This document shows positions 38,168 to 64,000 of a DNA stretch of 64,000 nt, in pieces. Source of the DNA: Shewanella psychropiezotolerans (lineage in GTDB: Bacteria > Pseudomonadota > Gammaproteobacteria > Enterobacterales > Shewanellaceae); contig NZ_CP041614.1 of NCBI RefSeq assembly GCF_007197555.1, positions 4,704,001-4,768,000 of the forward strand, read 5' to 3'. The translations under genes were made by a program, and so were the position numbers. The first letter of the stretch is position 1; each line of letters starts with the position of its first letter. Below the pieces are notes generated by a model. That model saw nothing but the letters and a program-made list of their open reading frames with translations, searched no databases and had not been told where the DNA came from.

Positions 38168-38193
38168 TCCAAGTACACGATTAGCTCACTGAA

Positions 38194-38802: not shown

Positions 38803-38811
38803 AACCTTCTC

Positions 38812-39435: not shown

Positions 39436-39436
39436 C

Positions 39437-47255: not shown

Positions 47256-47663
47256 TCACAAGGCCTGTAACTCTACCGACTTGGTCTGGGGCATATAACA
47301 TAGACCATCATCGGCGCAGCCCTGAAAGCGCACCTTGACTTTGCCCGCACCCTCGAAGGGAACCCGCACCCTTAATGGCTGACGAAAGACACCCACCTCA
47401 CCAAAATAGGGGTCTTGCTTCTGCTGCGCCGTGACAGAGAATATTGGCTCACCTAAGGTTAATTCGGGTGAAGCGGACTTGAACGACAACCGCTTCTGGT
47501 AGAGATAATACCCGGGAACGGTATCGAAGCTTATGATCAACTCATTTCCGACCACACTTTGACTGTAGGGGAAAGCCTGTTTCACAGGCAGAAACTCCTT
47601 TTGAGTTTGCGCCTGTGCGAACATGCTGGCCATAAAGCAAGATATGATAAATAACAGTCTCAT
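47256..47663 (-). CDS. Stand-alone DsbD-alpha-like periplasmic domain protein
   Basis: A 135-residue protein with a signal peptide (to A-Q-A near residue 19). The mature part matches the N-terminal immunoglobulin-like domain of DsbD: F-L-P-V-K-Q-A-F-P, P-G-Y-Y-L-Y-Q-K-R-L near residue 52, and F-Q-G-C-A-D-D-G-L-C-Y-M-P-Q near residue 115. The last segment carries the two redox Cys of DsbD-alpha, the domain that passes electrons to periplasmic partners. The membrane (beta) and thioredoxin (gamma) domains are absent. Its ATG overlaps the ApbE stop by 4 bp. It is the last gene of the redox cluster. Confidence 0.85.
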   Translation of the reverse strand: MRLLFIISCFMASMFAQAQTQKEFLPVKQAFPYSQSVVGNELIISFDTVPGYYLYQKRLSFKSASPELTLGEPIFSVTAQQKQDPYFGEVGVFRQPLRVRVPFEGAGKVKVRFQGCADDGLCYMPQTKSVELQAL

Positions 47664-48541
47664 GATTGGATAAACTCCGCGTCTTGATGAAGGGTTAACT
47701 TGTCGTCGATAAAGGCAAAACCAATCGAATCAGGGACATCCAGAGTCGGCTTTATGGTTAGTGCCGTACTGTATATTCCCGCCTCTAATGCCGTGTCAGC
47801 GACCACTGTGGATGAGAGCACCTGAGGATGTACCCCGCCTTTGGCTAATATATGTGACGTCTGGCCATCACTGAATTGGTAATGACGTTGATAATGAGCC
47901 GAAGTGGTGAGCGCCTGATTATTCAGGGGCAAAGAGAAGAAAGGTTTTTGGGTGTCTTTAGGGTTGAGCACGGCCACAACAAACGGATTGCCATCAAGCT
48001 TTTGACCAAAGGTGCGAATGTCACCGCCGAAATTAATCAAGGCCCCGGTGACGCCGGCGGCTTTCACTAAATCCACTGCTTGATCGACGCTGTACTCCTT
48101 AATCACCCCGCCTAAGTCAAACCGAGTCTGAGAATGAGTAAAACTGAGATTCATTCCCTCAAGTGACCAGGAATTGAGCCCCATATAGGGCTCAATGCTG
48201 AGGTATAACTCCTCCCGGCTCAGGTCTGGCTGGCAGGCCTTAAGGTATTTAAGGCTACCGATTGTGATGTCGAAGATGCCTTGGGTAGCCTCGCAGTACT
48301 GACGTACCAGCCTTAGAATAGTCCATGTTTCATGATCGAGTTCCACCCTATCACTCCCACGAGAATTAATCTGCCGACTTAGCCAGGAGTCCTTGTCATG
48401 GAAGTTATATTTAGCTTCCAGTCGCCGGGTATTGTCTTCGATAGCCAGAGCCAGAGGCTCGGCTTCATCGGCGAACAAGATAACTTCACAGGGAACCGTC
48501 ATGGCGGTGAAACGATGAACATAAACAAGGTTAGAACTCAT
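47660..48541 (-). CDS. ApbE-family FAD:protein FMN transferase
   Basis: A 293-residue protein with ApbE hallmarks: F-D-L-G-G-V-I-K-E-Y-S-V-D near residue 148, L-I-N-F-G-G-D-I-R, and V-V-A-D-T-A-L-E-A-G-I-Y-S-T-A (Mg/FAD site). Such enzymes attach FMN to Thr or Ser in a D-x-x-[ST]-G-A-[ST] motif. Unusually there is no signal peptide or lipobox at the N-terminus, so this copy may act in the cytoplasm or have an unrecognised start. I chose ATG 48541; a TTG at 48553 is in frame. It overlaps the DUF3570 stop and is coupled to the DsbD-alpha-like gene. Confidence 0.85.
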   Translation of the reverse strand: MSSNLVYVHRFTAMTVPCEVILFADEAEPLALAIEDNTRRLEAKYNFHDKDSWLSRQINSRGSDRVELDHETWTILRLVRQYCEATQGIFDITIGSLKYLKACQPDLSREELYLSIEPYMGLNSWSLEGMNLSFTHSQTRFDLGGVIKEYSVDQAVDLVKAAGVTGALINFGGDIRTFGQKLDGNPFVVAVLNPKDTQKPFFSLPLNNQALTTSAHYQRHYQFSDGQTSHILAKGGVHPQVLSSTVVADTALEAGIYSTALTIKPTLDVPDSIGFAFIDDKLTLHQDAEFIQS

Positions 48542-49781
48542 AGGTTGCCCCAACTACCCACCACTGGCTCTCATAGCCATTACTCCTGTCATAGTAGGCC
48601 GCCAAAGCATTAAGACGCAGTCGCTTAGTCGCCTTTACACTGACACCAAGCTCATAGGCATTGGCATCGAAATCCCCCAGACGCAGATCCGATGTGGCAT
48701 AACCGGTAGCCGCAAATGAAGGGTCGGCGGAATCTGGATCGACAAAGAAGTCTGCCGCAGTCTGAGTGTACCAAAAATATCCCGGAGTCAATGTCAGCCA
48801 ATCCAGCAGTTCGATACTTAATTTGCCGCCAACTTGGTGGGAGGTGACCCCCCAATCATCGGTAAAATACTTGTAACGTGGGCGAATAACCACAGATGAG
48901 CTAAAGCTGTAGAAGGTCTGAATATTAATCCCGCCGGAGAGTCGTTTATCGGGCCGGGTATCCTGACCTAGAAAGACCTCATCGTCCGCTATCACGCCAT
49001 CGTCATCTATGTCTATCTCACGCAACACAGTCAGGTAATGATTGCTCAAATACCCGGACTTGTATCCGGAAAAAAGGGTAAATGTGGCATAAAAGTTTGC
49101 GGTAAAAATCTGAGATAGCCCAAGTTCGATATCACTGTTAAAGATATCTTGCCACTCTTGGGTGTTACCGAAGTTCTCATATTCCTCAAATGCCAAGGTC
49201 TTATCGAGCAGTAAGGAGCCTCCTATGGTATAGGAGCGATTCTTACGACTGTCGGCATAGATGAGCACCTGACCATTGATGCCCATGCTTTCATAATCTT
49301 CCTCCTGAGAGTAGTTAAGGCCTAGGCTCCACTCATCACGCTTCTTGTCTCTGTAAGTCAGGTTAGCGCTGCTAGAGTAGCGGGTATCTTCGAGCTCATA
49401 GGCCTGCACGGCATAGGCATCCCGATAAGGGTCATAACCCGCACGAATCACCTCAGTAGTTTGCCCCTGTGCCAACTGGGTTTTCTTGGCTCGATTGAGC
49501 AAGTCCTGGTTGCCCGATACCGGAGTTGTCGGCCCCCAGGCGGGAGATGCACCCGAAACCGTGTCATAACCCAGCTCTGCGGTCAGGGTCCAATCCAAAC
49601 CGAAGTTTTTCTCAATAGAGAGCAGATTGTCGCCAGCCTTGACCTTATCGCCGTACTCCTCGAAGTTCATATGATGAATCGAAATATGATCCGCCGCCTC
49701 GACCTGAGCCGGGAGGGATAATGCGCCTAAGCCTGAGGCTGCTACGCCGCTTAGGATTGTCAGTGTTAATTTTTTACTCAT
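48531..49781 (-). CDS. DUF3570 protein, predicted outer-membrane beta-barrel
   Basis: A 416-residue protein with a signal peptide (to V-E-A-A near residue 30) and many amphipathic strands alternating with charged turns, ending in ...V-G-A-T-Y-E-F, with the terminal Phe usual for outer-membrane proteins. Residues 73-79 read D-T-V-S-G-A-S, which fits the D-x-x-[ST]-G-A-[ST] flavinylation motif; the following P-A-W-G-P-T-T is less like NqrC. D-I-D-D-D-G-V-I-A-D-D-E is a possible calcium loop. Function unknown. In the family, neighbours are typically DUF4266, ApbE and a thioredoxin, as here. Confidence 0.85.
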   Translation of the reverse strand: MSKKLTLTILSGVAASGLGALSLPAQVEAADHISIHHMNFEEYGDKVKAGDNLLSIEKNFGLDWTLTAELGYDTVSGASPAWGPTTPVSGNQDLLNRAKKTQLAQGQTTEVIRAGYDPYRDAYAVQAYELEDTRYSSSANLTYRDKKRDEWSLGLNYSQEEDYESMGINGQVLIYADSRKNRSYTIGGSLLLDKTLAFEEYENFGNTQEWQDIFNSDIELGLSQIFTANFYATFTLFSGYKSGYLSNHYLTVLREIDIDDDGVIADDEVFLGQDTRPDKRLSGGINIQTFYSFSSSVVIRPRYKYFTDDWGVTSHQVGGKLSIELLDWLTLTPGYFWYTQTAADFFVDPDSADPSFAATGYATSDLRLGDFDANAYELGVSVKATKRLRLNALAAYYDRSNGYESQWWVVGATYEF

Positions 49782-49813
49782 TGGTATTCTTATTTAAGTT
49801 TAAGCCATTGATA

Positions 49814-50500
49814 CTAGTTACAACCACAGCCGCCGCCACCGACGCCACTGCCACCCACAGAACCTTGCTTATAGGAGAAGACTTTCTCCGAGAAGCGGTC
49901 AAACTCAGGCACTACGCCGCCGGGCTTCATCGCCTTCTCGGCCAATGTGCCTTTCTCCCAAGGCTTTACCGGGTCTATCCCCAGCCACTCATCGAGAAAT
50001 GACAACATGGACTCATCATCTTTTGCATCTGCCACCTCAATTTCTGGCATATTCTCGAAGGAGAGAGTAGATGAAAGAGTCGGAGACATAGGCTGCGAAA
50101 TAGTCGGTGAAACACCTGGGCCGAACGAGATATCGTTCGCCAAAACTTCAGGGGCAGATAACAGCAGACTTGGCCGCTTAGGAGCGACTAGCTCGACATT
50201 ACGTCTCAGGCCTGTGATCGCCCCCTGACTGGAATACACGGAAGAGGAGACACTAGTGGACTGATGATAACGACCATTGGCGCTGACCGTCTCTTGTATC
50301 GAGCCTGGTACTGATTCTGGTACAGAGGCCTGCGCAGTTCCTGAGCCAATAGTCTGATTCAGCTTCTTAGTGTTAATTTCAGGCGGATTTTCGCCCTCAC
50401 CCAAGCCACTAAGATCAATATCCAATGTCGCCTTTGCACCGAATGACACGCTCAAGAGAGCGGATATCAGGCTTAACTTACATTTCATTTTTTTCTTCAT
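49814..50500 (-). CDS. DUF4266 protein with extended N-terminus
   Basis: 228 residues from ATG 50500 (ATG 50524 is also in frame). A signal peptide (to G-A-K-A near residue 24) is followed by a ~130-residue Ser/Thr/Pro-rich region of low complexity. The last ~50 residues are DUF4266: V-K-P-W-E-K-G-T-L-A, then G-S-V-G-G-S-G-V-G-G-G-G-C-G-C-N. The usual DUF4266 protein is a lipoprotein of only about 70-100 residues; the long spacer and lack of a lipobox Cys are unusual. The Gly-rich C-x-C tail could bind a metal or form a thiol bond with the thioredoxin partner upstream. DUF3570 follows 33 bp after the stop. Confidence 0.85.
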   Translation of the reverse strand: MKKKMKCKLSLISALLSVSFGAKATLDIDLSGLGEGENPPEINTKKLNQTIGSGTAQASVPESVPGSIQETVSANGRYHQSTSVSSSVYSSQGAITGLRRNVELVAPKRPSLLLSAPEVLANDISFGPGVSPTISQPMSPTLSSTLSFENMPEIEVADAKDDESMLSFLDEWLGIDPVKPWEKGTLAEKAMKPGGVVPEFDRFSEKVFSYKQGSVGGSGVGGGGCGCN

Positions 50501-50520
50501 ATTACTCGTATCTCCGCCCT

Positions 50521-50586
50521 TCATTTAGCCAATCCCAGGGATCTGATATCATCGATTATCACTTGTCTGATGTTATTCATATTGCT
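50521..50586 (-). repeat. Partial duplicate of the tlpA-like gene 3' end
   Basis: Reading the minus strand gives N-M-N-N-I-R-Q-V-I-I-D-D-I-R-S-L-G-L-A-K and a stop, against N-N-I-R-K-V-I-I-E-D-I-R-S-L-D-L-A-E at the end of the thioredoxin gene. The linking sequence GATACGAG-AATATGAA is also duplicated. It has no start and lies just before the DUF4266 ribosome site. Confidence 0.8.
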
Positions 50587-50620
50587 CGTATCTTCATTTT
50601 TCCCTTCATTCGATTATTCA

Positions 50621-51100
50621 TTATTCGGCTAAATCCAGAGACCGAATATCCTCGATGATCACTTTTCGAATATTATTGATAGCGCCGTATCTCACCTTGA
50701 GAACCTTGCCTTTGTAGACGTAATACAAAGCCGGCATACCAGTGGGCTGAAAATCTGCGACCAGCACTTGCTCCGGATCGGCTACCACTCGAAAAGTCAG
50801 ACCTAATTCCCGTTGGAATGCCAGTCCCACGTCGACGTCTTCATCGACATCGACACCGACTATGCTTACTCCGCGCCCGGCTAACTGACGAGACAATATC
50901 TCAACCTCGGGCAGTTCTTCACGGCATGACACGCACCACTGGGCAAAGAAATCTATGATAGTCAGCTCATTGGGGTTCAGACCTAACTCCTGCATCGCCT
51001 TAGATGAAAGCAAGTCTCCCTGTTGATAGCCATACGCCGATGGCGAAAGCGTTGTAAACACTAAAGAAACGATCACGGCCCACCTTTTAAACATAAACAC
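50621..51100 (-). CDS. TlpA/ResA-like exported thioredoxin
   Basis: A 159-residue periplasmic thioredoxin-fold protein. The signal peptide ends at A-Y-G near residue 24. The active site is F-F-A-Q-W-C-V-S-C-R-E-E-L-P near residue 57; C-V-S-C with the following E-E-L-P is the TlpA type. The cis-Pro is in T-G-M-P-A-L-Y-Y-V. It starts the redox cluster; Cys partners in DUF4266 and the DsbD-alpha-like protein make a thiol relay plausible. Its 3' end is partly duplicated downstream. 51101-51220 before it separates it from the Tad operon. Confidence 0.88.
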   Translation of the reverse strand: MFMFKRWAVIVSLVFTTLSPSAYGYQQGDLLSSKAMQELGLNPNELTIIDFFAQWCVSCREELPEVEILSRQLAGRGVSIVGVDVDEDVDVGLAFQRELGLTFRVVADPEQVLVADFQPTGMPALYYVYKGKVLKVRYGAINNIRKVIIEDIRSLDLAE

Positions 51101-51220: not shown

Positions 51221-52438
51221 TTAAGTTTCTATTTCCTCCCGCAATACTAAGCTAGCCTTAGTCTCAGTCTGCAGTGCCTCACGAAAGAAGGCTTCCAGCT
51301 CCTGGGTATTTTGCGCGTCATACACCTTGCCCTTAACACCGGCACACTCCCTGAATTGCTGCAGGCGGCGATCGCTGACTCCGAAGCCGATAAAGCTCAT
51401 CTCGATATGATGTTTATCCTGGATAGCCCGGCACAAGCCTTGTTCAATCAGATCATCCAGATGAAAGCCCTGGTCTGCACCATCGGTGAACAACACCAAA
51501 CGCTGTATCAGTTCTGGCGACTCAACAGGGGGGATCTGCCATTCCTCCTGCCACTGGGGCAGCAAGGTGCGCACGCCCCAGATCAAACCTTGATAGGAGG
51601 AAGTCGTGCCACTGGTGACTAGGGCATCGACCCTCTGTTTCACCAAATCGAGATCTTGCGTCAGGGGCAAGATCGTCACATCCATGCTGCAGGCGTCCAG
51701 CCATTTGCTGGCAAATGTCGTATTAATATTCAGGTTGGCGGCGGGCTCAGCAAGATCGTTCACCGTTGCGGCATAATCCACACTGTATTGGCCATAACTC
51801 AGACCATCGACACAGGTGACCTTGTCCGCAGATTTTGGCATCCAGGGAGCATTGAGCACACCGACTCCAGTCTCGAAGGGCACCAAAGAAAACCTCACCG
51901 CACCGACTTCATCTGCATCTTGCTGTCGAATATCTTCGAGGGCGCCATTGATGATGCGTTTCAACTGAGGTAACTGAGCGGACATGGATCCAGAGATATC
52001 CAACACCAAAGCGAGATCCATGGGTAAGGGCGTCGAGTTGATCACCAAGTGTGAAGTTGCACCAGTATCTGAGGAGAGAGATACATCTGTGCGCGCCGAC
52101 TCTGGAAGCAGCGCCATCATGGTCGGGTTGAAGCGATAACTCGCCTTTATGCTGCAGCGATTTCTGCCGTCGATGGCTATCTGGGCTTCACCATCATGGA
52201 TCACAAAACCGGGACGATAATAATCCAAGATACCCACAAGCAGGGCTTGATCGGCCCGCTGTGAATAACCGCAGGCGAGAGACGCTGCATCCGATGCCTG
52301 ACCGGCCCGGGTCACCGTCAGCAGATACATGGCCAGTAAGATACTGATGGCAATCATCGCCAACATGAAAGGTAAACAGATCACAAACATCAGGGAGATA
52401 TCCCCATGCTGTCTATCGTAACCAAGACGTTTTGTCAT
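51221..52438 (-). CDS. tadG: TadG-like pilus-assembly protein with von Willebrand factor A domain
   Basis: A 405-residue protein. The N-terminal Tad-type membrane helix (D-I-S-L-M-F-V-I-C-L-P-F-M-L-A-M-I-A) is of the kind found in pseudopilins. A vWA domain follows from about residue 140, with the MIDAS motif D-I-S-G-S-M-S and a later D-G-A-D. Such proteins are thought to anchor or regulate the Flp pilus at the cell surface. Its start overlaps the tadF end by about 25 bp. Last gene of the Tad operon. Confidence 0.85.
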   Translation of the reverse strand: MTKRLGYDRQHGDISLMFVICLPFMLAMIAISILLAMYLLTVTRAGQASDAASLACGYSQRADQALLVGILDYYRPGFVIHDGEAQIAIDGRNRCSIKASYRFNPTMMALLPESARTDVSLSSDTGATSHLVINSTPLPMDLALVLDISGSMSAQLPQLKRIINGALEDIRQQDADEVGAVRFSLVPFETGVGVLNAPWMPKSADKVTCVDGLSYGQYSVDYAATVNDLAEPAANLNINTTFASKWLDACSMDVTILPLTQDLDLVKQRVDALVTSGTTSSYQGLIWGVRTLLPQWQEEWQIPPVESPELIQRLVLFTDGADQGFHLDDLIEQGLCRAIQDKHHIEMSFIGFGVSDRRLQQFRECAGVKGKVYDAQNTQELEAFFREALQTETKASLVLREEIET

Positions 52439-53009
52439 AATGCCTCCCTATCATCAAAGAAGAGCTCTTATAATAATCTTGGGTAAAATTGGAAAAATCC
52501 ACGATACCCAGCACGCCATTGACAGATTTAACGTCTGTCAAACACACGGTCACCTGAAACAGCTGAGCATATTTACCTAAGTTGTATCCCTCCACACTGC
52601 CCTTAGGAGATAAGTCGGCGAGACCCGTTAACCCGGTATTGCCCTGACATTTGCTGCCAGATTGAAAACCGTACCACTGCTCGCTATTTTTTTCTCCCAG
52701 GAACTTAAGCTGCTCCAGCTCGATACCGACTTGAGTATTACCGTCACTGCTGATGCCATCCAAGTGGCGCTTAGCTAAGGTCAGTAGATCATCGGCTAGC
52801 TTCTGAGTGATCGCTTGCTTATCTGTCACCCATGGCAGCTTCAAGGGCTCGACACTGACCACAGTCACCAGTGAATAGGACAGGCGGTCCAACTTGGCCT
52901 TAGTCAGCAGAGCATGGTTAATTCTGAACACGAATAGGGCCAGAGCCGCCATCACTAAAATGATCACAGGCAAGGCGATAACGCTGATCCCCTGCTGATA
53001 TTTAGCCAT
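52413..53009 (-). CDS. tadF: TadF-like minor pseudopilin
   Basis: 198 residues from ATG 53009; an in-frame ATG at 53027 overlaps tadE, and AGAGG upstream favours 53009. It starts M-A-K-Y-Q-Q-G-I-S-V-I-A-L-P-V-I-I-L-V-M, a hydrophobic pseudopilin-like helix after a short positive region. The C-terminal part has C-Q-G-N-T-G-L and C-L-T-D. Identified as TadF by position between tadE and tadG and by the helix; sequence conservation in this family is low. Confidence 0.75.
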   Translation of the reverse strand: MAKYQQGISVIALPVIILVMAALALFVFRINHALLTKAKLDRLSYSLVTVVSVEPLKLPWVTDKQAITQKLADDLLTLAKRHLDGISSDGNTQVGIELEQLKFLGEKNSEQWYGFQSGSKCQGNTGLTGLADLSPKGSVEGYNLGKYAQLFQVTVCLTDVKSVNGVLGIVDFSNFTQDYYKSSSLMIGRHYDKTSWLR

Positions 53010-53013
53010 GGAA

Positions 53014-53469
53014 TTAACGCCTCTCATGGGCTACCAACACGGTTCGCTCAAACTTATTGATGGCGCTGCCATCACCCATGCCTTCGATAAATAACATCTG
53101 ATAGGTGTAAGTAAGCCGATATTCACCATACATCTGGTCCTTATAATCCGAATCGTATTGATCCAGCACTAAGGCCTCAAGATCCTCATAATAACGTCCC
53201 TCAAGTTTCATTCTGCCATTGTCAAATAGTGGCCAATCCTGCGCATCGATCTCTTGTCTCAACAGCTGCAGAACATCTTGCTTATCATTCAGCCTGACCA
53301 CCTGTCTGGCGGCCGTAGACAGGGCCGCATCGAGCAGATTTGCCGTTAACATGAAACGGCACAGCTCGACAACCAGGAGTAAAAGAATGAAAAAAGGGAT
53401 CAGAGTCAGGGTAAATTCCAGGGTTTGACTCCCCTCTTGCTTCGACTTCACAGTTCCTTTCTCTGCCAT
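53014..53469 (-). CDS. tadE: TadE-like minor pseudopilin
   Basis: A 151-residue protein. The processing/membrane region is G-S-Q-T-L-E-F-T-L-T-L-I-P-F-F-I-L-L-L, a TadE-type sequence (G followed by T-L-E-F). The remaining ~105 residues are periplasmic. It overlaps the tadD end by 22 bp and is 4 bp before tadF. Role by family: minor component of the Flp pilus machine. Confidence 0.85.
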   Translation of the reverse strand: MAEKGTVKSKQEGSQTLEFTLTLIPFFILLLLVVELCRFMLTANLLDAALSTAARQVVRLNDKQDVLQLLRQEIDAQDWPLFDNGRMKLEGRYYEDLEALVLDQYDSDYKDQMYGEYRLTYTYQMLFIEGMGDGSAINKFERTVLVAHERR

Positions 53470-54200
53470 TGGCCATAGAAATCCAGATTTCGCTCTAGCT
53501 CCGCCTTAGTCAGATCTTGTCTGGCTATGGCCTTAGCCGCCTCTATATCGCCTTTCATCGCGAAGGCCAGGGCTAAGTTCTGGCGTAATTTTACCGTGCT
53601 TTTTCCGCGTAAATAACTGGGGTAGATAACATCTATGCCCAGCTGCGGCTTGTCATCGAGTATCCAGGCCAGAGCTAAATTATTGCGATATTCCAGACTG
53701 CCGGGATCGATATTAAGCGCCGCCTGAAACGCGCCGCGAGCCTGCTGGTATTCCTGATGCAGGGCATAACACACACCCAGACTGTTGTGGGCCACGGCGT
53801 CACCGGGCAACAAAGAGCTTGCCTGCAGCAGCGCAATCAAAGCCTTGGGCGTATCACCGGAGGCTAGCTGCGCCCGGCCTATCTCTCGCTGGATCTCTCC
53901 CCGGCTGGCATAGCCAGCCTCGCGGTTGATTCGACTCGCCTCCTTAAGTTGGTGCAATGCCATCGCATACTCACCGCTCAGGTTATAGGCGCTCCCCAGT
54001 AGATAGAGCAGCTCCACATCGTGGGGAGCTTTATCTAACAATGCTTGATAGATCTCTATGGCACTCCCCGGACGGCCATTCGTCATTGCCACCTCGGCCA
54101 AGTGACGATCATTAGCCTTGAGCTGCTCTGCTGAGAGTGAGCCTGAAGAGCCACAGGCCATAAGCTGGGTTAACAGGAATAAAAATATTAAACGCTTCAT
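53448..54200 (-). CDS. tadD: TadD-like TPR lipoprotein
   Basis: A 250-residue lipoprotein (lipobox L-M-A-C, Cys16) with TPR repeats from about residue 40 to 200: E-L-L-Y-L-L-G-S-A-Y-N-L-S-G-E-Y and A-H-N-S-L-G-V-C-Y-A-L-H-Q-E-Y are two. TadD helps pilus secretin assembly. A 14-bp sequence just before its ATG (54201-54214) recurs at the tadC stop (54275-54288). Confidence 0.88.
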   Translation of the reverse strand: MKRLIFLFLLTQLMACGSSGSLSAEQLKANDRHLAEVAMTNGRPGSAIEIYQALLDKAPHDVELLYLLGSAYNLSGEYAMALHQLKEASRINREAGYASRGEIQREIGRAQLASGDTPKALIALLQASSLLPGDAVAHNSLGVCYALHQEYQQARGAFQAALNIDPGSLEYRNNLALAWILDDKPQLGIDVIYPSYLRGKSTVKLRQNLALAFAMKGDIEAAKAIARQDLTKAELERNLDFYGQWQRKEL

Positions 54201-54270: not shown

Positions 54271-55139
54271 TCAAAGTTCACCTATCGATGTCATAAGTTC
54301 AATGATTGTCGGCGCCACGATCAGGACTACCACAGGTATCATGACCAGCACCACGAGTGGCATGGACATCTTGGCGGGGATCTTGCCGACCTTCTCTTCC
54401 AACGCCAGATACTGGTGCTGACGGCTATCCGAGGCGATAAGGCGCATGCTCTTAGCGATGGGACTGCCGTATTTTTCTGCCTGAGACAGGGCGATAACCA
54501 TGTTTTCAATTTCGATGATGCCAGTGCGAAGGGCCAGGTTTTTCAATGCCTGGGGCCGGGAATCGAGCAGACGCAGTTCGGCTTCGGTGATCAACCACTC
54601 TCGGGACAGTTCCGGGGAGAAGTTCACCATCTCTTGACCTACCCGACCAAATACCGCCTCCAGAGTAAGACCGGACTCGACGCACACTACCATAAGGTCC
54701 AGTGCATCCGGGGTCGCTCCGGCGATGCGAGAAGAGACAAGCCGCGCCCTGAATTTGACCCAATGCTCCACCCCAATCCCGCCGATAACGGCAAACACCA
54801 CCCCTTGGCCAAGATGACCTTGTCGAAACTGAAGCCAGAATATGCCATCCAGCCGATGAAACAGCTTATCGCCACCAATAACTTGGCCACCACAAAGATG
54901 CTGGCAGCATGCTCAGAGTAGAATCCAGCTCTGAGCAACAAGGCCTTGATATCATCGCTGACCTTAATCTTAGATTGGAGCTGGTTCTGAGGCTTAGCAA
55001 AGGCCATAGCCCCGCGTTCCACAAGCTGTAAACGTGCAACGACCCCATCTCTCTGCCGCGCCTTAACGCTGCTGAGCAAGGCTAAGGAGCCCCCGGCGAG
55101 CAATAACATAAACGATACCCACAAGGATAAGGTCATCAT
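54271..55139 (-). pseudogene. tadC: TadC inner-membrane platform protein, frameshifted
   Basis: Two frames combine to 289 residues, the usual TadC length. The first (ATG 55139, overlapping the tadB stop) covers the N-terminal helix region and breaks after L-A-K-G. The second gives V-V-F-A-V-I-G-G-I-G-V-E-H-W and the GSPII-F-like domain with P-D-A-L-D-L-M-V-V-C-V-E-S-G-L-T-L-E-A-V. One extra G in the GGGG run at plus positions 54810-54813 joins them. TadC is homologous to GspF and pairs with TadB as the inner-membrane core of the Tad machine. The break is likely a base-calling undercount. Confidence 0.85.
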
Positions 55140-56071
55140 GGTCGCACCTTAGTCAGCACATTGATGATGCCAAGCCCCAGAGCTATGCTGCAAACCACAT
55201 ATAACAAGACATTGTGCCCGGCTGGCGTGTCGGTGAGCACGGCGAAGGAGGTGGGATTTTTGAAGAACATGATGCTAATCAAGATTAAAGGCAAGCTAGC
55301 TAGAATCAACGCCGTCATTCTTGGCTCTGCGGTCAGACTCTTGATCTTCATCTTGATCGCACTATTATCGTGCAGGGTTCGGCCCAGGCTATGGAGTACC
55401 TCCCTCAGTTGACCACCGTTCTCCTGGTTCAAAATAAGTGCCACAGTGAAGAAGTGAAAACTTGCATAGGGCAAACGATAACAGGCCTGTTCCAGGGCCT
55501 GCTTAAGGCCGATTCCTATGGCGAGTCTGTCGCGGATAAGCTCAAATTCACGACCGAGGAAGCCCTGCTGATACTCAGATACCTGGGCTATGGCCTGGGG
55601 CACTGAGATGCCGGCCGCCACGGCGCGGGAGATCTGACCCAACACCTGAGGAAAGGCTTGATCGAACTGCTTCATCTGCATCGAGCGCATCAACCAGAAA
55701 AAACCTAAGAAGCCGATAGTCGGCACCAATATCAACAGTGCCAGGCGCACATAAACAGGCAAGAAACCACTCATTATCCAGCTGGTGATAGCCGACGTAA
55801 CCAGACCCAGATAAAGGAAAGTTTTCCCCTTGAGCCCGAATAGGTTATCGATACGAGACTCCAGTCTTCTGAGCCAGCGTAGCCAAGGACTCACTTCCTG
55901 CTCCCAACCAAAGAGTGACTTAGACACAGATTTATCTTGGGCCTTGAACTTAGTCACGCTCAACAGGCGCCTTCGAGTCTGACGACGCTGGCCAATGTAA
56001 TACCAAGAAGAAACAGCACTGACTGTCAGGCTCAATACCAGGAGAAAAATGGCGCACAGAGCAAACATCAA
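55136..56071 (-). CDS. tadB: TadB inner-membrane platform protein
   Basis: A 311-residue protein with an N-terminal helix, two helices in the middle (T-S-A-I-T-S-W-I-M-S-G-F-L-P-V-Y), a GSPII-F domain (Q-I-S-R-A-V-A-A-G-I-S-V-P-Q-A-I-A-Q) near residue 145, and two C-terminal helices. It overlaps cpaF by 4 bp (ATGA) and tadC by 4 bp. Confidence 0.92.
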   Translation of the reverse strand: MMFALCAIFLLVLSLTVSAVSSWYYIGQRRQTRRRLLSVTKFKAQDKSVSKSLFGWEQEVSPWLRWLRRLESRIDNLFGLKGKTFLYLGLVTSAITSWIMSGFLPVYVRLALLILVPTIGFLGFFWLMRSMQMKQFDQAFPQVLGQISRAVAAGISVPQAIAQVSEYQQGFLGREFELIRDRLAIGIGLKQALEQACYRLPYASFHFFTVALILNQENGGQLREVLHSLGRTLHDNSAIKMKIKSLTAEPRMTALILASLPLILISIMFFKNPTSFAVLTDTPAGHNVLLYVVCSIALGLGIINVLTKVRP

Positions 56072-57414
56072 TTCACTCCCATCACTTGCTTGAGTCTGGT
56101 ATCTAGCTGGTAATATCTGGCCTTCTCGATAAATTTAGGCACTTTTTGTGCAGACAAGAATTGCCCCAACACATTGCCTTGGCTGTCCTGCCCCTGATAA
56201 TCGAAGCGAAACAGATCATGGGTAAGATATTGATCTCCTTCCAGACCAACCAGTTCGGTGATATTGGTCACCCGACGTCGACCATCCCGCATTCTCTCGA
56301 TCTGCACAATAATGTCTATGGTTGCGGCTACCTGACGCCGCAGGGCCTGTGCCGGCAGGTTAACTTCCGCCATCAACAGCATGTTTTCCAGACGGATCAA
56401 CGCATCGGATGGCGAGTTGGCGTGCAAGGTACACATGGAACCATCATGGCCAGTGTTCATCGCCTGCATCATGTCAAATGCTTCGGCGCCACGCACTTCG
56501 CCGAGAATGATGCGATCCGGACGCATACGCAGGGCGTTCTTCAATAAACGACGCTGATCGACGGCCTCCAGACCTTCAGCGCTCGCCGGACGCGTCTCGA
56601 TACGTATGACATGGGGCTGCGCCAATTTTAATTCTGCCGCATCTTCTATGGTGATGATCCGCTCCTCGGGTGAGAAACCAAACGACATGGCATTGAGTAG
56701 CGTAGTCTTACCCGCACCCGTGCCGCCGGAGATCAGCACATTCACCCGGCAACGGGCTATGATGTCCAGCAAGGTCACCATATCCGCCGACATGGCCCCA
56801 AGCTCGGCTAACTGGCTCAGACTACGTTTGTTATCGCTGAATTTACGGATCGAGATACAAGTGCCATCCAGGGCCAGAGGTGGAATGAGTACGTTAACCC
56901 GGCTGCCATCGGGCAGGCGGGCATCGACCATAGGATTCGTCTCATCGATCCTGCGGCCAATGCGGCTCACAATTCGTCGGGCTAAATTGAGCACATGCTC
57001 CTCATCGCGAAAGCTGATTTCCGCCGACTTGAGCTTACCTTTATGCTCGATAAACACTTCCTTGTGGCCGTTGACCATGATGTCGGTGACATCGGGATCA
57101 TCGATCAACACTTGCAGCGGCCCCAGGCCTAACATTTCGTCCACCAGGCGCAGCATGATCTGCTTCTGTTCCTGGCCTCCCATGGGCAGTTGATGACGCT
57201 GGGCTATATCGCCCACGGCCTCGAAGGTCCGAGTCTCTAGCTCCTCACGGGAGAGTTGGATCACAACGGCGGGTTCGATAGCGAGCATAACTTCACTGTG
57301 GATCAAGGCGAATCGACTCTGCTGACGCTCGGAATCTTTGACCGACTCGCTCATAGCTACCGAACCAGAGCGAGGCGACGGGCTCTGATTAGCCGATATT
57401 TTTCGTCCAAACAT
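56068..57414 (-). CDS. cpaF: CpaF/TadA pilus-assembly ATPase
   Basis: A 448-residue secretion ATPase of the VirB11/PilT class. The start at ATG 57414 overlaps the cpaE stop (TGATG) and has GGAGAG upstream; a TTG at 57432 is in frame but inferior. Walker A is [15 protein letters not shown] near residue 220; the Asp box and Walker [11 protein letters not shown] follow, with His box [14 protein letters not shown]. It powers Flp pilus extension. Confidence 0.95.
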
Positions 57415-58268
57415 CAGTCTCTCCTGAACCAAAGTTTCATTCGGCTCACAGGAGCGACTTGTTCACCCGTCACTCTGGCAGCGAGTTGCTTAAACACCCT
57501 ACCGAGTCGACCGTTATCGTCGGCAACATGGCTTCCCAGAGTCGCGGTGGATAACATCTTCTCCGGGCTAAATGGGATCACTAGATCTACGCTCTGGCCC
57601 AGAGCTTGATTGACGTCGGTTAACGAGATCAAAGAAGCCTTCTCTGGCTTAGTATGATTAAGGATCAGAATCGTCTGCTGATCATGATCTGTCGCCAGCT
57701 GAGTCAATAATTGATTGGTATGACGAATCGAGGCCAGTGTCGGCTCTACGATGACGATACGAATATCAGCGCTACGAATAGCCTCGAAACCGACACTGTC
57801 ACGCAGACAGAAAGAGGGGATATCCCAGATCAGATAATCTGTCTGTTGCTGACAAAATTGTGAAGTCGCTTCTAAGGCCTCCGAGTCGGGCCAAAACTCC
57901 TGGGCCAACTGCTGACTATAGCCGGTAAAAACGTGCAATTTCTCCGCCGCCTTCACTCCGCTACGCTCGAACACTATAGGCTCCAGACGCTCGGGATACT
58001 GCAACATCTCGGTGAGCCTATTATTGGCACTGATATTCAGATGCAGATCTAAGTCGCCGCTAACAAAGTCCAGATCCGCGCAGGCGACCCGCTTGTCGAG
58101 TTGCTGTGACAACACCCAGGCAAGGTTAGCCGCGACACTGGTGCTACCCGCTCCGCCCTTGGCGCTGGCAACGGCGATACGTTTGCCTAACTCACCCGAT
58201 GCTACCCGGTATTGTGAATAATCGGTCTGAGAGCCGCTATCCTGAATCTTGTAAATATTTGAAGTCAT
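57414..58268 (-). CDS. cpaE: CpaE/TadZ pilus localisation protein, MinD/ParA-like
   Basis: A 284-residue protein with a deviant Walker A motif A-S-A-K-G-G-A-G-S-T-S-V-A near residue 35 (the Lys-Gly-Gly-x-Gly pattern of MinD/ParA) and a following A-D-L-D-F-V-S-G-D-L-D-L-H. The N-terminal receiver-like domain of larger CpaE proteins is missing. TadZ places the Tad machine in the cell. Confidence 0.9.
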   Translation of the reverse strand: MTSNIYKIQDSGSQTDYSQYRVASGELGKRIAVASAKGGAGSTSVAANLAWVLSQQLDKRVACADLDFVSGDLDLHLNISANNRLTEMLQYPERLEPIVFERSGVKAAEKLHVFTGYSQQLAQEFWPDSEALEATSQFCQQQTDYLIWDIPSFCLRDSVGFEAIRSADIRIVIVEPTLASIRHTNQLLTQLATDHDQQTILILNHTKPEKASLISLTDVNQALGQSVDLVIPFSPEKMLSTATLGSHVADDNGRLGRVFKQLAARVTGEQVAPVSRMKLWFRRD

Positions 58269-58374: not shown

Positions 58375-59001
58375 TTAATTCCCAGAACCGCCTGATAGCG
58401 CGCCTGAGATTGGTGAAGACTCCCTCAATGGGGCATTGGGTTGAGCATAATATGCTTCCAGAGTCGACACAGCCTTGCGGCCCTCGGTCGCAGACAAGGT
58501 CTCGCCCACCACCAAATCCCGAGGGTTTGCCACCATCTGAGCCAAGGCGCTGGCATTGGCACAGCCAAAGTTAGCCGAACGTTTAAAACTGTTGAGAATC
58601 GTCTTAGGCTCTTTGCCCGCATCACAATGGCGAACTAAGGTGCGATACGACTCGACCACCAGAGTCAGATCTTCAGAGGTGCTGGCAGACTCCCTCCGAA
58701 GGGTCCGGATCTGCGAGGGATATATATTTCTGCGGTGCAATAATTCCTGCACCGAGTTCAGCACCTTTTCTCCCCGTGAAGAGTGAGTTTCGATACGTAC
58801 TCTTAAGTTGGCTGGATCGCCCTGGCGCAGCAGGAACTCTTCCAATGCCGCCCTGTCTTCGCTATCGAGTGTTTCTGCGATTAACCGCAGAGAAAACACA
58901 TGGGTCACCGCCTCGATGGCGATATCGGGCTGACGTTTTATCGGATCGCCAGAGCAAGCCAAGAGCAGACTGCTAAGCAGCAATAAAATAATTAAGCGCA
59001 T
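58375..59001 (-). CDS. cpaD: CpaD/RcpB-type pilus lipoprotein
   Basis: A 208-residue lipoprotein (lipobox L-L-L-A-C, Cys16). The central region resembles an OmpA-like or secretin-associated fold (L-R-V-R-I-E-T-H-S-S). F-G-C-A-N-A-S-A-L-A-Q-M-V-A-N-P-R-D-L-V is the CpaD signature and R-R-x-V-x-x-L-x-x-Y at the C-terminus fits too. It starts 8 bp after cpaC and is followed by a 106-bp gap before cpaE. Confidence 0.85.
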   Translation of the reverse strand: MRLIILLLLSSLLLACSGDPIKRQPDIAIEAVTHVFSLRLIAETLDSEDRAALEEFLLRQGDPANLRVRIETHSSRGEKVLNSVQELLHRRNIYPSQIRTLRRESASTSEDLTLVVESYRTLVRHCDAGKEPKTILNSFKRSANFGCANASALAQMVANPRDLVVGETLSATEGRKAVSTLEAYYAQPNAPLRESSPISGALSGGSGN

Positions 59002-59009
59002 GACTCACC

Positions 59010-60405
59010 TCAGTAATAAAATCCGTTGTCGCCGAGCAGACGCAGCTGACGATTATCGTTCGGGTTAACTTGCGTATCCAACGAGCTGAGCACTCCCCTT
59101 CGGGGCCAGGCCAGCAGGCGCTCGACATCGCTCATGGGAATGAGTCCGTCGGTAGGCAGAGGCAATGAATCCCCCCGGGTGGGTTCAACCAGATAGGCAG
59201 TGGCAATGATGATCAGCTCAGTCTCCTCACGCTTAAACTCATTGGAGCGAAACAAGGCCCCGAGAATGGGGATATCGCCAATCCAGGGCATCTTTTGCAT
59301 CTGCTCAATGTCGGTGGATTGCAGCAGGCCGCCGAGAACGAAGCTCTGGCCACTGGCCAGCTCTATGGTGGTCGATGCCTTACGTGTCATGAATATCGGA
59401 AATGATGAGTCTCCCATCACCACATTGGTGCTCTGGGATATGGTACTGACTTCAGGTTCTATCTGCAGGCTGATGCGATTAGGGCTTAACACGGTAGGTT
59501 TAAAATCCAGACGCACACCGAAGGGCTTATATTCTATGCTGACAGTGTCGCCATAGATCAGCGGAATGGGCACCTCTCCCCCACCAAAAAGGAGGCCTTC
59601 TCACCGCTAATCGCCGTCAAGTTAGGCTCGGCCAATACTGATATCATGCCATTGGTCGCTAACGCGTCGACCATGACCGAAAGGTTGCTCCAGCCCAGAC
59701 CATCGATAAAGGCGAGTTTGCCTGTGCCAAATCCTTGGGAGCCCCACTTGATACCGAGTTTATTGGAAACATTACGTGATACCTCGGCGATCCTCACTCT
59801 CAGGTTGACCTGAGTCGACATGGTGATCTGCAACTGATTGATCAGCTCACCTTTACTGGCAGTGCCCGATTTAGCCTGCTGCCCGCCGCCATTTTGACCT
59901 TGTTGCTTAGCTCCCTTAGCCTGATCCGAAGATTTCCCCCCTGCTTGCCTTGCGAGGATTGAGGTTGAGAGACATAACCTTCAGACAGGCGAATTATCTT
60001 CTCCGCCATGGTTGGCGTCGGCACCCGGCCCTTCAGAAATAGCTTGCCTGCGATAGATTCGGCGCTGACTAAGGCATCGGGAAATTCACTTAGGATCAAG
60101 CCATTGAGTTCATCGACGTTATGACTGACCTTCACGCTTGCCGAATAGATGACATTTTCATCGGCATCGAGCACGTAGAGGGAAGTGGTGCCGGCTTGCT
60201 TGCCAAATACCATGATCTTGGTATTGGTCAATGCCTGATAATCGGCGATGGTATTACTGGAGATGAATATTGATTTGGCCGTTTTAGGCAATTGCACCAA
60301 CTCAGCTTTATTTAGGGTCACGGCTAAAATCATATTTAATGACTCTGCTTGTGATGCCCCACAAAATAACAATATACACAAAAAGGAGGTAATTACTTTA
60401 ATCAC
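59010..60405 (-). pseudogene. cpaC: CpaC/RcpA outer-membrane secretin, frameshifted twice
   Basis: Three frames make one 465-residue secretin. The first (ATG 60405) has the signal peptide and N-terminal N0/BON-like domain (V-K-V-S-H-N-V-D-E-L-N). After a GGGGGG run at plus 59936-59941 the frame changes; the second gives L-R-V-R-I-A-E-V-S-R. After GGGGG at 59578-59582 the third gives V-P-I-P-L-I-Y-G and the secretin core S-G-Q-S-F-V-L-G-G-L-L-Q with I-P-I-L-G-A-L-F-R-S. One G added at each run restores an uninterrupted frame. RcpA forms the pilus channel in the outer membrane. The Gln/Gly-rich linker lies at ~155-185. Confidence 0.87.
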
Positions 60406-61264
60406 TCTTGTCCCCTGCTTGATTTAGCACACGTTTATCACTGGCTCTGAATTCAACTAAACCTATATTGGGTTGAACGCGTTTAATATCAGGAAATATA
60501 TCGGCGATATTAATTTCATCTTGTCTATTGGCTTCATCAACAAGCTCATTGTTACTGCGTAACACTAGCGTCAATATGCCTAACTGATTGGCTAATATAA
60601 TTCTGTTGGCCTGCTTAGCTAATACTTCTAATGTCACCGCACTGTCATCGGGAATAAAACCTTTATTCTCCTTCTGCGCCGCTATATATTGTTCGACTTT
60701 GACGGCATCGTTAAAGGCAAGCACACGGACATTCCTCGCTATTGTTTTCACATACAAGCTCTGTGTTTCATTGCCCCGGGTGCGAAGCTCCTGCTCCTGG
60801 GAGGCTAATAATAAGACATCGACAAAATCCCCAGGACCCACTAAGCCAGAGTTAGCTGTCACCTGATCCACTGGCACAGAAACCGCGCGGTATCCGGGAC
60901 GAAGAGACACCGACAGAAAGCCGCCCTCTTCAGGCTTAAGAAAATCCGACAGACTCATGATATGTCCGGCAGTAAACGAGCTCACAAGCACTGAGCCATT
61001 AAACTTGAGAATATCGAACTTATCCTTACCGATATGATCCACTAAGCCAGTCAATTCATCTTCATTCAGTGCTTTCCATTCGAATAAAGAAGCACTGAAT
61101 CGCTGGCCGGATTTAATTTCCTGCTTAGCCACGAGAATTTCGTGTATTACATTCTCCGTTTTTATATCTACCTGCTTCTGGGGCGCAGAAATACTCAGGT
61201 ACAGGCCAATAAGGCCAGCCAGAGATATAAAAACCGAGAAATACATTAAACGTTTTACTGTCAT
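60398..61264 (-). CDS. cpaB: CpaB/RcpC pilus assembly protein
   Basis: A 288-residue periplasmic/inner-membrane protein. A single N-terminal helix is followed by an SAF (antifreeze-like) domain around residues 45-110 with V-A-K-Q-E-I-K-S-G-Q-R-F. The C-terminal part carries R-A-V-S-V-P-V-D-Q-V and G-L-V-G-P-G-D-F-V-D-V-L-L, the CpaB signature. It overlaps cpaC by 8 bp. Confidence 0.92.
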   Translation of the reverse strand: MTVKRLMYFSVFISLAGLIGLYLSISAPQKQVDIKTENVIHEILVAKQEIKSGQRFSASLFEWKALNEDELTGLVDHIGKDKFDILKFNGSVLVSSFTAGHIMSLSDFLKPEEGGFLSVSLRPGYRAVSVPVDQVTANSGLVGPGDFVDVLLLASQEQELRTRGNETQSLYVKTIARNVRVLAFNDAVKVEQYIAAQKENKGFIPDDSAVTLEVLAKQANRIILANQLGILTLVLRSNNELVDEANRQDEINIADIFPDIKRVQPNIGLVEFRASDKRVLNQAGDKSD

Positions 61265-61320: not shown

Positions 61321-61503
61321 TTATGATTCTTCCTGAATCGTTTCCAGCTTGGACACTATGGTCTCGTAGGCGGCATCGATAGCCTTAGTCAACTTCCCAT
61401 CCTCGCCTAAGAAACTAAACATAACCAGAGACATGGCCGCCGCTAATATTGCATATTCGATTGCAGCTGCGCCGCGCTGTTTTTTCTTGATAGTATTCAT
61501 CAT
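61321..61503 (-). CDS. flp: Flp-family type IVb pilin
   Basis: A 60-residue prepilin. The leader M-M-N-T-I-K-K-K-Q-R-G ends at a TadV-type cleavage site before A-A-A-I-E-Y-A, with the essential Glu at position +5-like and Tyr after it. A 20-residue hydrophobic helix and a short charged tail follow. It is the structural subunit of the pilus built by the downstream genes. A prepilin peptidase (tadV/cpaA) is not within the window. Confidence 0.95.
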   Translation of the reverse strand: MMNTIKKKQRGAAAIEYAILAAAMSLVMFSFLGEDGKLTKAIDAAYETIVSKLETIQEES

Positions 61504-61552: not shown

Positions 61553-64000
61553 CTAGTTATTCCCCGCGTAATCGATACAGAGAGGGATACATATTATAGC
61601 CCCCTCATAAGTCACATATGCCTCGGTTCCATCTATTTTCAGGCATCTCTTTCTTTTGCCGGAATAACCTAAACTTGATTCATCCGATGAAACATAACAG
61701 GCTAGTTTATTGTAATTCCCACTCACCTCATTATTTATAAATACTGACTGATCAAAAGGATATAGAGTTTTAATCTCATCGAAGCTTGGTATCGCCCATG
61801 TGGTCAGACCGCACAGTGAAGCGGTATTAACCTCATCGACAATCGCTGCAAGATCGTTGAATTTTTTAAACCTTGCACCGCCTTTATCATCGAATAACTG
61901 CCAGTAATTGCCACTGACCTTGTCTCGGGTGCACTTGGCGTTAGCCAACACCAATGTCACTGAGCCATTAATATCGATTAATTCATAGGGAGAGATTTCG
62001 CTGACAAAGCGGGCGATAAAAATCTTGTTATCGAGCTCACCAACAGATTTGTCGAAAAAATCCTTGCTGGAGCCATAATTGTTAGCTGTTTTAAAGGTGA
62101 AGGCCTGCTGCTTGGCTCCGTCACTGACATGGGCCTTACTTAGCCAATAGAAGAAACGTTTGCCGCCGTTGTACTTATCATATTCATCAGTCAGGGCCAG
62201 ATGGTTGGGAAACACACTGGTGTCTATGGTTCTAGAATAACTGCTACCTGAAGTGGCTAAGGTTTCTGTCTGAGTCAGGCCTGGTACCTGCCAATCGCTA
62301 TGCCCGCAGTAGTTGGCATCATTGCGCCGCTTCAATAAGCCGCTGGTGCCCATTACGTTCGACTCTGTATTAGTGCCATCATCGAATGGCAAGTTATCTG
62401 AGCCCCCAGGCAAACCATCACCCAGCAAGGTCCAGATCCTCGAATAATTAGCAAATCTGCTGTCGAATACACAACGCCAGCCTTGGGCGAAGCTGGTATT
62501 ACTCGGCAAATAGTCACCATTAATATCCAGCTTACTGAAATGGGTACCGATCACGGCATCGGCTGCGGGCACGGTATAGCCATCGCTCTTTGCCCGTGTT
62601 AAAGCTTGCATCGCCGTCGTTTGCGCCGATGTCACATCTGCGCCCGACTCGAGTGCATTTAAGCGTGCAAGCAAAATATTGAGCTCAGTATTGATGGCAT
62701 CACTGAGCCCTCCTGAGTCCAGCGCTTCGGTTAACTGGGTATAGATAGCATCGAAATCTTTTAGGGTCAGCTGCAACTGGTGAATCGCCTGATACAACTC
62801 AAGCGCTGCGCCGTGTAGCACCTGACCATTGTCTCCGGCTATCGAGGTTATCTTATTGATCACATCGTCCAGATTTTTTCCCAGAATCAACAGATAATTA
62901 AGGGCATGCAGCGCCTTTATCGAAGCCTGAGTTCGGGTCAATACTAAGTTAATGTCTGTCTTTTGCGCCTGCAGTTCGACCAAGCTAGATTGCAGCGAAG
63001 CCAAGTCTACACTCGTCGTAGTCGGGCGATTTTTTATGATCAGATCCACATAGAGTCGATATGCCACATAAGCTTCATCTAGCTCAGTTGCCAGTGCCCT
63101 CGCCTCACCGTTCAAAGCCTGCATATCCAGCTGAATCTTCTCGACATCATTAAGTACCGGGTCAGTTTTAACCATCTCGGCTAGCAGGCTGGTATTCAAG
63201 TCGATTTCCAAGATCTCTAAGGAGTTAACCCCAGTCACCGCATCGTTTTTAATGGCCAATAAACGCGCTACAAGCTCACTGGTCTCTCCCAGTATCCAGT
63301 AGGGATAATACGAATTGCTCCAACTCGGCTGTGCTATGGCACCATTGTTATATAGCACATAATCTGAACCAGACTTTGCCCAAAACGAGCCATAGCCTCG
63401 ACTCATGTTCACAGGTTTATTATTCCCCGAACTGCTTATGGCCGTTGATGCCATCACCAGAGACTCAGGGGGAGCATCCCAGCCGATCAGACCGCAAACA
63501 GAATTTAGGTTCAAAGAAGCCAGCTCGTCGACAAGCTTTGTCTTATCGAAGTAACTGCTTTTTCCGCCCCAATACCTAGGCTCACCTTCTCCATTAGAGT
63601 CAAACTGTGCCCAGCACCCTTGATTGGTATCGAAACGATATTGATTACTGCCATTGGATGACTCGGAGATAGTCATTACCTGGCCCACAGATAACATAGG
63701 GACAAATTCCATAACAATAAATTGTCCACTGGCACCAGTGGCATCCATGATTTTCCCCGGCGCATTCACTTCTGTGGCCTTAGCATTACCACGCACACGG
63801 ATCTGCAGCTTATCTTTGCTATAAACCTGTGAGCCCATATGTTGCGGATTACTGCCTACTGCAGTCCAGCTCAGGCCTGCATCATTGCTATATTCATAAT
63901 GTGAAGCCTCAACAAAACCGGGAACCCAGCTCCACTTGAGGCCATTGGTTATACCGACACTGCTGGCATTGACGATTTCCGGATGAGTAGGGGCATCGGG
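61553..64000 (-). CDS. Large exported protein with DUF1566-type domains (C-terminal part)
   Basis: The frame is open to the right edge, so at least 815 residues are present and the N-terminus is missing. The right-edge part reads as Fn3-like (W-S-W-V-P-G-F-V-E-A-S-H-Y-E-Y-S-N-D). Three DUF1566/Lcl-like segments follow, two with C-G-L-I-G-W or C-G-L-T-T-W and one with Y-C-G-H-S-D-W-Q-V-P, separated by a long helical coiled-coil region (about residues 235-440 of the visible part). It ends 49 bp before flp with no terminator between, so it may be cotranscribed with the pilus genes; a pilus-tip or adhesin role is my inference. Confidence 0.7.
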   Translation of the reverse strand, partial: PDAPTHPEIVNASSVGITNGLKWSWVPGFVEASHYEYSNDAGLSWTAVGSNPQHMGSQVYSKDKLQIRVRGNAKATEVNAPGKIMDATGASGQFIVMEFVPMLSVGQVMTISESSNGSNQYRFDTNQGCWAQFDSNGEGEPRYWGGKSSYFDKTKLVDELASLNLNSVCGLIGWDAPPESLVMASTAISSSGNNKPVNMSRGYGSFWAKSGSDYVLYNNGAIAQPSWSNSYYPYWILGETSELVARLLAIKNDAVTGVNSLEILEIDLNTSLLAEMVKTDPVLNDVEKIQLDMQALNGEARALATELDEAYVAYRLYVDLIIKNRPTTTSVDLASLQSSLVELQAQKTDINLVLTRTQASIKALHALNYLLILGKNLDDVINKITSIAGDNGQVLHGAALELYQAIHQLQLTLKDFDAIYTQLTEALDSGGLSDAINTELNILLARLNALESGADVTSAQTTAMQALTRAKSDGYTVPAADAVIGTHFSKLDINGDYLPSNTSFAQGWRCVFDSRFANYSRIWTLLGDGLPGGSDNLPFDDGTNTESNVMGTSGLLKRRNDANYCGHSDWQVPGLTQTETLATSGSSYSRTIDTSVFPNHLALTDEYDKYNGGKRFFYWLSKAHVSDGAKQQAFTFKTANNYGSSKDFFDKSVGELDNKIFIARFVSEISPYELIDINGSVTLVLANAKCTRDKVSGNYWQLFDDKGGARFKKFNDLAAIVDEVNTASLCGLTTWAIPSFDEIKTLYPFDQSVFINNEVSGNYNKLACYVSSDESSLGYSGKRKRCLKIDGTEAYVTYEGAIICIPLCIDYAGNN

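Follow-up and report, generated by a model that had tools for sequence, protein, structure and literature searches.

Gene clusters that combine the flavin mononucleotide (FMN) transferase ApbE with a DUF3570 protein, a DUF4266 protein, a thioredoxin-like protein and often DsbD have been described by Meheust et al. in 2021 (PMC8238504). The main text of that paper counts 285 flavinylation clusters with DsbD, among them 227 with DUF3570, 221 with DUF4266 and 183 with the thioredoxin-like protein (counted there as PF13899), and 316 clusters without DsbD; it proposes that DsbD feeds a hybrid thiol/flavin chain, describes two flavinylation motifs in DUF3570, reports flavinylation of the DUF3570 protein of Chlorobium luteolum, and associates VIT1 iron transporters with 25 of the DUF3570 clusters. 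In the text of PMC12052999, the flavinylation motif is given as D-x-x-[S/T]-G-A-[S/T]. The present analysis concerns a five-gene cluster (hereafter the module) of Shewanella psychropiezotolerans that lies directly behind an operon for a Tad (tight adherence) pilus, within a window of 64,000 nucleotides, that is, the whole stretch of DNA analyzed (contig NZ_CP041614.1, positions 4,704,001 to 4,768,000), to which the coordinates below refer. An earlier note on this DNA had stated that DUF3570 and DUF4266 often travel with ApbE and a thioredoxin, and this is indeed a recognized cluster type in the main text of PMC8238504. The module is, then, already known in kind, and what is new is its fixed place in one Tad lineage, which was not found in the literature searched: the words Tad and pilus have 0 occurrences in the main text of PMC8238504, whose supplement may list Tad loci, and a literature search, made in part by title and the start of the abstract, found no link of ApbE with the Tad pilus, of flavinylation with tight adherence, or of tadG with DsbD. 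Within that literature, DUF3570 or DUF4266 is named in a single paper, and nothing on the link came from PMC7396505 or PMC11334425.

All five genes of the module are on the minus strand at 47256..51100, as the earlier note had placed them, and match their Pfam families (Thioredoxin/AhpC-TSA, DUF4266, DUF3570, ApbE and DsbD_N) above the curated cut-offs. In the direction of transcription, they encode a periplasmic thioredoxin-like protein with the active site WCVSC (50621..51100; PF00085/PF00578, not PF13899), a long DUF4266 protein of 236 residues (49814..50524; PF14086 over residues 186-236), whose tail, noted earlier, is present and reads GGGGCGCN, a predicted DUF3570 outer-membrane barrel with the flavinylation motif D73-T-V-S-G-A-S79 (48531..49781; PF12094, 284 bits), an ApbE-family FMN transferase (47660..48553, with the likely start, conserved in the alignment, at the ATG at 48541; PF02424, 148 bits), and a solo DsbD alpha (N-terminal) domain of 135 residues with the cysteine pair CADDGLC (47256..47663; PF11412, 88 bits). 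The window thus holds an ApbE gene, a DUF3570 with [S/T]GA[S/T], a DUF4266 with a C-terminal CXC and a thioredoxin-like protein, the DsbD transmembrane domain PF02683 being absent from the cluster (DsbD_N only) and present in four relatives scanned. Concerning the spacing described earlier, both overlaps stand (DUF3570/ApbE, and ApbE/DsbD_N by 4 bp), as does the short gap after DUF4266, measured here as 32 bp instead of 33; calling the 96-bp gap between the thioredoxin and DUF4266 genes repeat-filled was too generous, because only one copy of each of two short direct repeats, 21 nt and 17 nt long, falls within it, the second copy lying at the beginning of the DUF4266 gene. A distance of 120 bp separates the thioredoxin gene from the end of the Tad operon, which lies upstream on the same strand, and a promoter and terminator scan gave a number of sites not above that of shuffled sequence. 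The host genome is a single contig of 6.45 Mb, and the nearest named proteins to the window DUF4266 protein are those of Shewanella violacea and S. psychrophila.

The attachment to the Tad operon is conserved. We compared 23 loci with the window-type DUF3570, namely four from Shewanella (the window included), three from Photobacterium and 16 from further genomes of the order (nine Moritella, five Vibrio, and L076 and L077 from two further genera). The order tadG, thioredoxin, DUF4266, DUF3570 is found in 23/23, with the module directly 3' of tadG, and ApbE and DsbD follow in all 22 whose contig reaches that far, the contig of L077 ending after DUF3570. Recurring in 22 loci besides the window, the arrangement is far beyond chance, and the absence of conserved linkage, which the earlier note had named as grounds for abandoning its proposal, did not occur when the five-gene set and its tad neighbors were followed across genomes. 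Where gene spacing was measured (21 loci), ApbE and DsbD always overlap; the thioredoxin and DUF4266 genes overlap in 19, S. psychrophila and S. violacea having gaps of 260 and 272 bp instead; and the tadG-thioredoxin distance is 9-97 bp in 20, with an overlap, by longest frames, in one. A DUF3570 model run against 394 genomes of the order, with the best four candidates scored per genome here and in the TadG search, matched in 18 genomes at E up to 1e-30. The Tad-linked type is present in 17 of them (E at most 7.4e-102), and the remaining one, G374, has a distant non-Tad copy only. A TadG model from the Tad-linked loci (E up to 1e-20) returned the identical 17 genomes and no others, so that the linkage holds in both directions, neither the Tad-linked DUF3570 type nor its TadG type occurring alone in any of the 394. 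Alignment A2 held 19 sequences (the window and 18 of the 31 hits P0001-P0031) and A3 17 of the 23 TadG sequences. TadF occurs in 69 of the 394 genomes, the 17 included. Within 129 Shewanella genomes, DUF3570 is present in 89, and the Tad-linked type, by score and context, in four: the window genome, S. psychrophila (G073), G095 and S. violacea (G123). No tad genes stand beside any of 31 DUF3570 loci of other types, nor module genes in any of 20 classical Tad loci; these control Tad loci, like the 20 class-level DUF3570 loci, were picked from longer lists, and a broken canonical copy without tad genes (L041) entered no count. Among 284 genomes sampled from the class, no strong DUF3570 relative other than the window turned up, the next best match having E 4.7e-39. 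Proteins P0032-P0042, known from protein sequence alone, are 35-46% identical to the window's, and three of them (P0039, P0040 and P0042) are 54-57% identical to the Tad-linked L077.

Descent points the same way. In a tree of 14 of the 23 Tad-linked DUF3570s, two non-Tad sisters, 19 canonical sequences and six of a third type, the Tad-linked sequences form one clade (Shimodaira-Hasegawa-like approximate likelihood ratio test (SH-aLRT) 96), which the two non-Tad proteins (L078 and L079) join with SH-aLRT 100; deeper joins are unsure because some long branches meet. Trees of TadA plus TadB and of DUF3570 plus ApbE, compared with L077 excluded on account of its contig end, contain the same genus-level groups, and their pairwise distances correlate with r 0.82, a value reached in 0 of 2000 permutations. 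From these trees, the Tad operon and the module appear to be one unit by descent. The third DUF3570 type of Shewanella (L043-L048) is accompanied by a thioredoxin and a DUF4266, with no ApbE detected within the 20 kb read, and in L113 (G740) and L124 (G813) the DUF3570 lies inside open frames of about 910-920 residues, perhaps fusions with another domain.

Three motifs are invariant in the Tad-linked loci: WCVSC in the thioredoxin, the terminal CXC of DUF4266, and D-x-V-S-G-A-S in DUF3570, which fits the published motif, are each found in 23/23. The DUF3570 model is a closed 16-strand barrel (predicted local distance difference test score (pLDDT) 87.5; predicted template-modeling score 0.82), supporting with good confidence the outer-membrane barrel predicted earlier; the alignment of Tad-linked DUF3570s has no conserved cysteine column, and a search of PDB sequences with the DUF3570 profile found no match up to E 1. 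By eye, the window DUF4266 protein consists of a secretion signal, a low-complexity spacer and a conserved C-terminal part, and it was modeled as disordered (pLDDT 53.5); the Tad-linked DUF4266 has gained a long disordered spacer. The window DUF3570 has a single strict flavinylation motif. Loss of a second one was considered as a hallmark of the Tad-linked type and rejected, since canonical Shewanella reads also have at most one strict motif (one in 32/35 and none in three, two genes being read twice).

The lone DsbD-alpha gene, which had been singled out as unusual, is present with its 135 residues and is not part of the conserved design. In the four Shewanella loci, this gene has 135 residues, whereas all 18 non-Shewanella loci have a DsbD-like gene of 579-653 residues, so that an ancestral DsbD-alpha-only design was rejected, the shortened DsbD occurring, among the loci compared, only in the Shewanella copies. 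Like the E. coli-type DsbD, the window protein has the cysteine pair in the equivalent place, and it matches DsbD_N over nearly its full length, but the Shewanella copies lack the transmembrane and gamma domains, both of which are found in the four non-Shewanella proteins scanned with Pfam. At another place, the window genome encodes a full-length DsbD in which all three parts are present. When solo DsbD_N proteins were searched for, 15 matches were obtained, comprising the query, five more with 69-89% identity and nine with 26-41%, of which some are perhaps fragments.

Upstream of the module, the Tad operon of the window runs on the minus strand. From its 3' end, it comprises a TadG-like VWA protein (51221..52438; PF00092) with six cysteines conserved in 22-23 of the 23 loci, TadF (52413..53027; PF16964), TadE (53014..53469; PF07811), a TadD-like TPR lipoprotein, its lipobox seen by eye (53448..54200; TPR families), a TadC-like T2SSF protein in two overlapping frames (54271..55139), a TadB-like T2SSF protein (55136..56071; PF00482), a TadA/CpaF-like ATPase (56068..57432; PF00437), an ATPase named TadZ/CpaE-like by its position (57414..58268; ParA/MinD-type families only, ParA/AAA_31), a CpaD-family lipoprotein (58375..59001; PF09476), the RcpA/CpaC secretin in three frames (59010..60405), RcpC/CpaB (60398..61264; PF16976) and the Flp pilin of 60 residues (61321..61503; PF04964, 33.8 bits, cut-off 32.2). 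Flp, TadA, TadB/C, secretin, RcpC and TadE/F, the component set of a Tad/Flp system, are hence all present by Pfam, with TadC and the secretin located by tblastn with the S. violacea proteins, on which PF00482 and PF00263, respectively, were scanned. Both tadC and rcpA are single-frame in S. violacea and S. psychrophila, unlike in the window strain, whose pilus genes may therefore be damaged or mis-sequenced, the breaks representing gene decay or assembly errors. The window genome also carries, at about 2.9 Mb, a canonical cluster whose neighbors we take to be PepSY, DUF2271 and DUF4198 genes; the DUF3570 of this cluster (L004:9433-11000) is in two frames as well, and the assembly may therefore contain indel errors.

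At the 5' end of the operon stand two surface lipoproteins. The giant one (61553..64000, minus strand; 2162 residues in all, extending past the window end) has an S. violacea relative with Lcl_C (PF07603), a domain found in two of its relatives scanned. In 9/9 of the 5' ends of Tad-module loci read, a giant lipoprotein of 1062-2162 residues lies just upstream of rcpC (in the window, flp stands between the two) and is accompanied by a lipoprotein of about 680-730 residues that is transcribed divergently (in L104, 1554-8042 and 8100-10283, respectively). The latter has an Asp-rich stretch and a Cys-X8-Cys behind the lipobox, and no Pfam family was found in the S. violacea protein. Behind the lipobox Cys, a pair of cysteines at a distance of nine residues is shared by the eight divergent and four sister-module proteins compared and by four of five giants. 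The N-terminus of the divergent lipoprotein is homologous (E 1e-6 to 3e-15) to lipoproteins of 1029 and 1022 residues beside the two non-Tad sister modules, and no lipoprotein homologues were found in the 20 classical Tad loci or in the 31 DUF3570 loci of other types. This sharing with the sister modules, together with absence elsewhere, suggests that the partnership is as old as the clade, and leaves the lipoproteins as the leading candidates for the acceptor. For the prepilin peptidase TadV, the spaces considered were those within the operon, where flp and rcpC are 56 bp apart in the window and the giant lipoprotein is separated from rcpC by 271-338 bp in nine loci.

We consider it somewhat better than an even chance that the module is a Tad-borne branch of the published flavin-thiol system, working as an envelope electron relay that serves the Tad machine and the surface lipoproteins. 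From the sequences, we infer an electron flow, and its direction, in which a cytosolic reductant would supply DsbD, encoded by the operon in the relatives, or, in Shewanella, the full-length DsbD encoded elsewhere would pass electrons to the solo alpha domain. The WCVSC thioredoxin would receive them next and hand them to the terminal CXC of DUF4266, a tail that the long disordered spacer would allow to reach the outer membrane; from there they would move to an FMN putatively attached by ApbE to S79 of the DUF3570 barrel and finally to a surface acceptor. The relay would probably serve the Tad machine and the two large lipoproteins, with their Cys-X8-Cys loop as the candidate target. A bolder version, which we regard as speculative and rather unlikely, is a redox-wired pilus with a relay of its own across the outer membrane, in which the barrel FMN, fed by threading of the Gly-rich CGC tail, would switch disulfides of the surface lipoproteins, so that adhesion would respond to the redox state of the cell.

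Several observations weigh against this relay. The 17 genomes are not independent because they are drawn from five genera of five families, and both search models were built from members of the group. The fine branching of the TadA plus TadB and DUF3570 plus ApbE trees differs, with 10 of 19 bipartitions in common, and several of the conflicting branches are well supported. Moreover, the window strain has broken copies of tadC and rcpA; the reach of DUF4266 and the lumen position of S79 are suggested by sequence and not by coordinates; the FMN on the window barrel is predicted from its motif; and the tie between module and pilus is so far argued from genomes. ApbE poses a further difficulty, in that the module enzyme is without a visible signal peptide although its presumed substrate is exported. 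The longest ApbE frame in the window leaves no room for such a peptide because it overlaps the end of the DUF3570 gene by only 23 bp, and the longer reads in some relatives run within the DUF3570 gene in another frame. In addition, all 22 module ApbEs, aligned to TM1553 (1vrm), have Gly at the Asp of A-D-A-L-S-T, which in TM1553 is presumably a metal ligand; the His of the H-I-L motif is retained. The equivalent Gly is found also in the window genome's paralogue and in the six canonical Shewanella ApbEs whose motif was printed, and the canonical Shewanella module ApbEs likewise show no signal peptide by eye. Since both features extend to the canonical copies, the barrel may be modified before export, or this branch may work otherwise, which raises the biochemical question of how an exported barrel could be modified by an ApbE with neither a visible signal peptide nor the usual Asp. 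The third ApbE of the window genome, encoded elsewhere (L133) next to an NqrF-like frame, retains the Asp and is, judged by eye, a lipoprotein; what we take to be an NQR operon occupies 36903-42840 of the window, about 4.4 kb from the module. Elsewhere in the window, two adjacent overlapping frames of 282 and 237 residues (22532-24054, minus strand) resemble one transporter gene split by a frame change.

Of the other explanations, the one that survives best, though we judge it unlikely, is extracellular electron transfer, in which the module would reduce Fe(III) or other outside acceptors and the Tad pili would merely hold cells on the reduced surface. The 25 clusters with VIT1 counted in the main text of PMC8238504 and the expected place of an FMN barrel in the outer membrane would suit it, but neither the giant nor the divergent lipoproteins at the nine 5' ends read contain a cytochrome CXXCH motif (the search did not extend to iron genes around the operon), and the tie of the module to a single Tad lineage is left unexplained. 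Somewhat more doubtful is thiol maintenance only, with DsbD and the thioredoxin correcting disulfides of the Tad proteins and the barrel/ApbE part being secondary. A thioredoxin and DsbD do suit a reducing pathway, and conserved cysteines that could be its targets are found in TadG (six), TadF (two) and the CpaD-like lipoprotein (two). However, TadG has 4-7 cysteines and TadF 0-4 in 16 classical Tad loci that have no module, so that the Tad cysteines are not supported as a special substrate, and the invariant flavinylation motif and the barrel would go unexplained. The model put forward earlier, envelope electron transfer or thiol maturation, is supported in part, as to the recognized flavin/thiol cluster, the barrel and the Tad attachment, its simple thiol-maturation half being weakened because classical Tad operons have similar cysteine numbers without the module. 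Hitchhiking, that is, co-transcription and inheritance behind tadG by chance with no joint function, can draw on the few genera involved, the inheritance of operons as blocks and the 120-bp gap between tadG and the thioredoxin gene in the window, yet it is improbable given that neither part occurs alone in 394 genomes, that gene order is kept in six genera though identity falls to 36% (DUF3570) and 21% (TadG), and that the lipoprotein neighbors are common to the non-Tad sister modules.

The locus is worth comparing with both of its known counterparts. As in classical Tad/Flp operons, it contains Flp, RcpC, the secretin, TadZ and TadA-G in identical order, and TadA is 46-54% identical to that of the window in 19 of the 20 control loci, which include a second Tad operon of the window genome itself (none was found in the twentieth, L095); these controls belong to another Tad lineage. 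In clear contrast, tadG is followed in the classical operons by an OmpA-like gene (15/16 by eye, one confirmed by Pfam; in the sixteenth, a stray frame was picked) and here by the redox module, a gene of 140-161 residues mostly precedes rcpC there and has no room in the module lineage, and two conserved lipoproteins stand at the 5' end here. The canonical clusters differ in that their DUF4266 is a lipoprotein (by eye) of 71-103 residues, whereas the Tad-linked one has 154-290 residues with the spacer, and in that the thioredoxin paralogue of the window genome has WCGPC in place of WCVSC. With the clusters presented in the main text of PMC8238504, the module shares the protein families, the type of flavinylation motif and the C-terminal CXC of DUF4266, and the order Trx-DUF4266-DUF3570-ApbE occurs in canonical copies too; it differs from them in that its DUF3570 belongs to a separate clade attached to a Tad operon and in that its Shewanella copies have DsbD cut to the alpha domain. 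Altogether, a Tad gene set in one marine lineage with a built-in, presumably electron-carrying module suggests a pilus with its own redox wiring, and, compared with DUF3570 clusters at large, known flavinylation systems of uncertain purpose, a branch locked to one pilus and one pair of lipoproteins narrows the guess as to the target.

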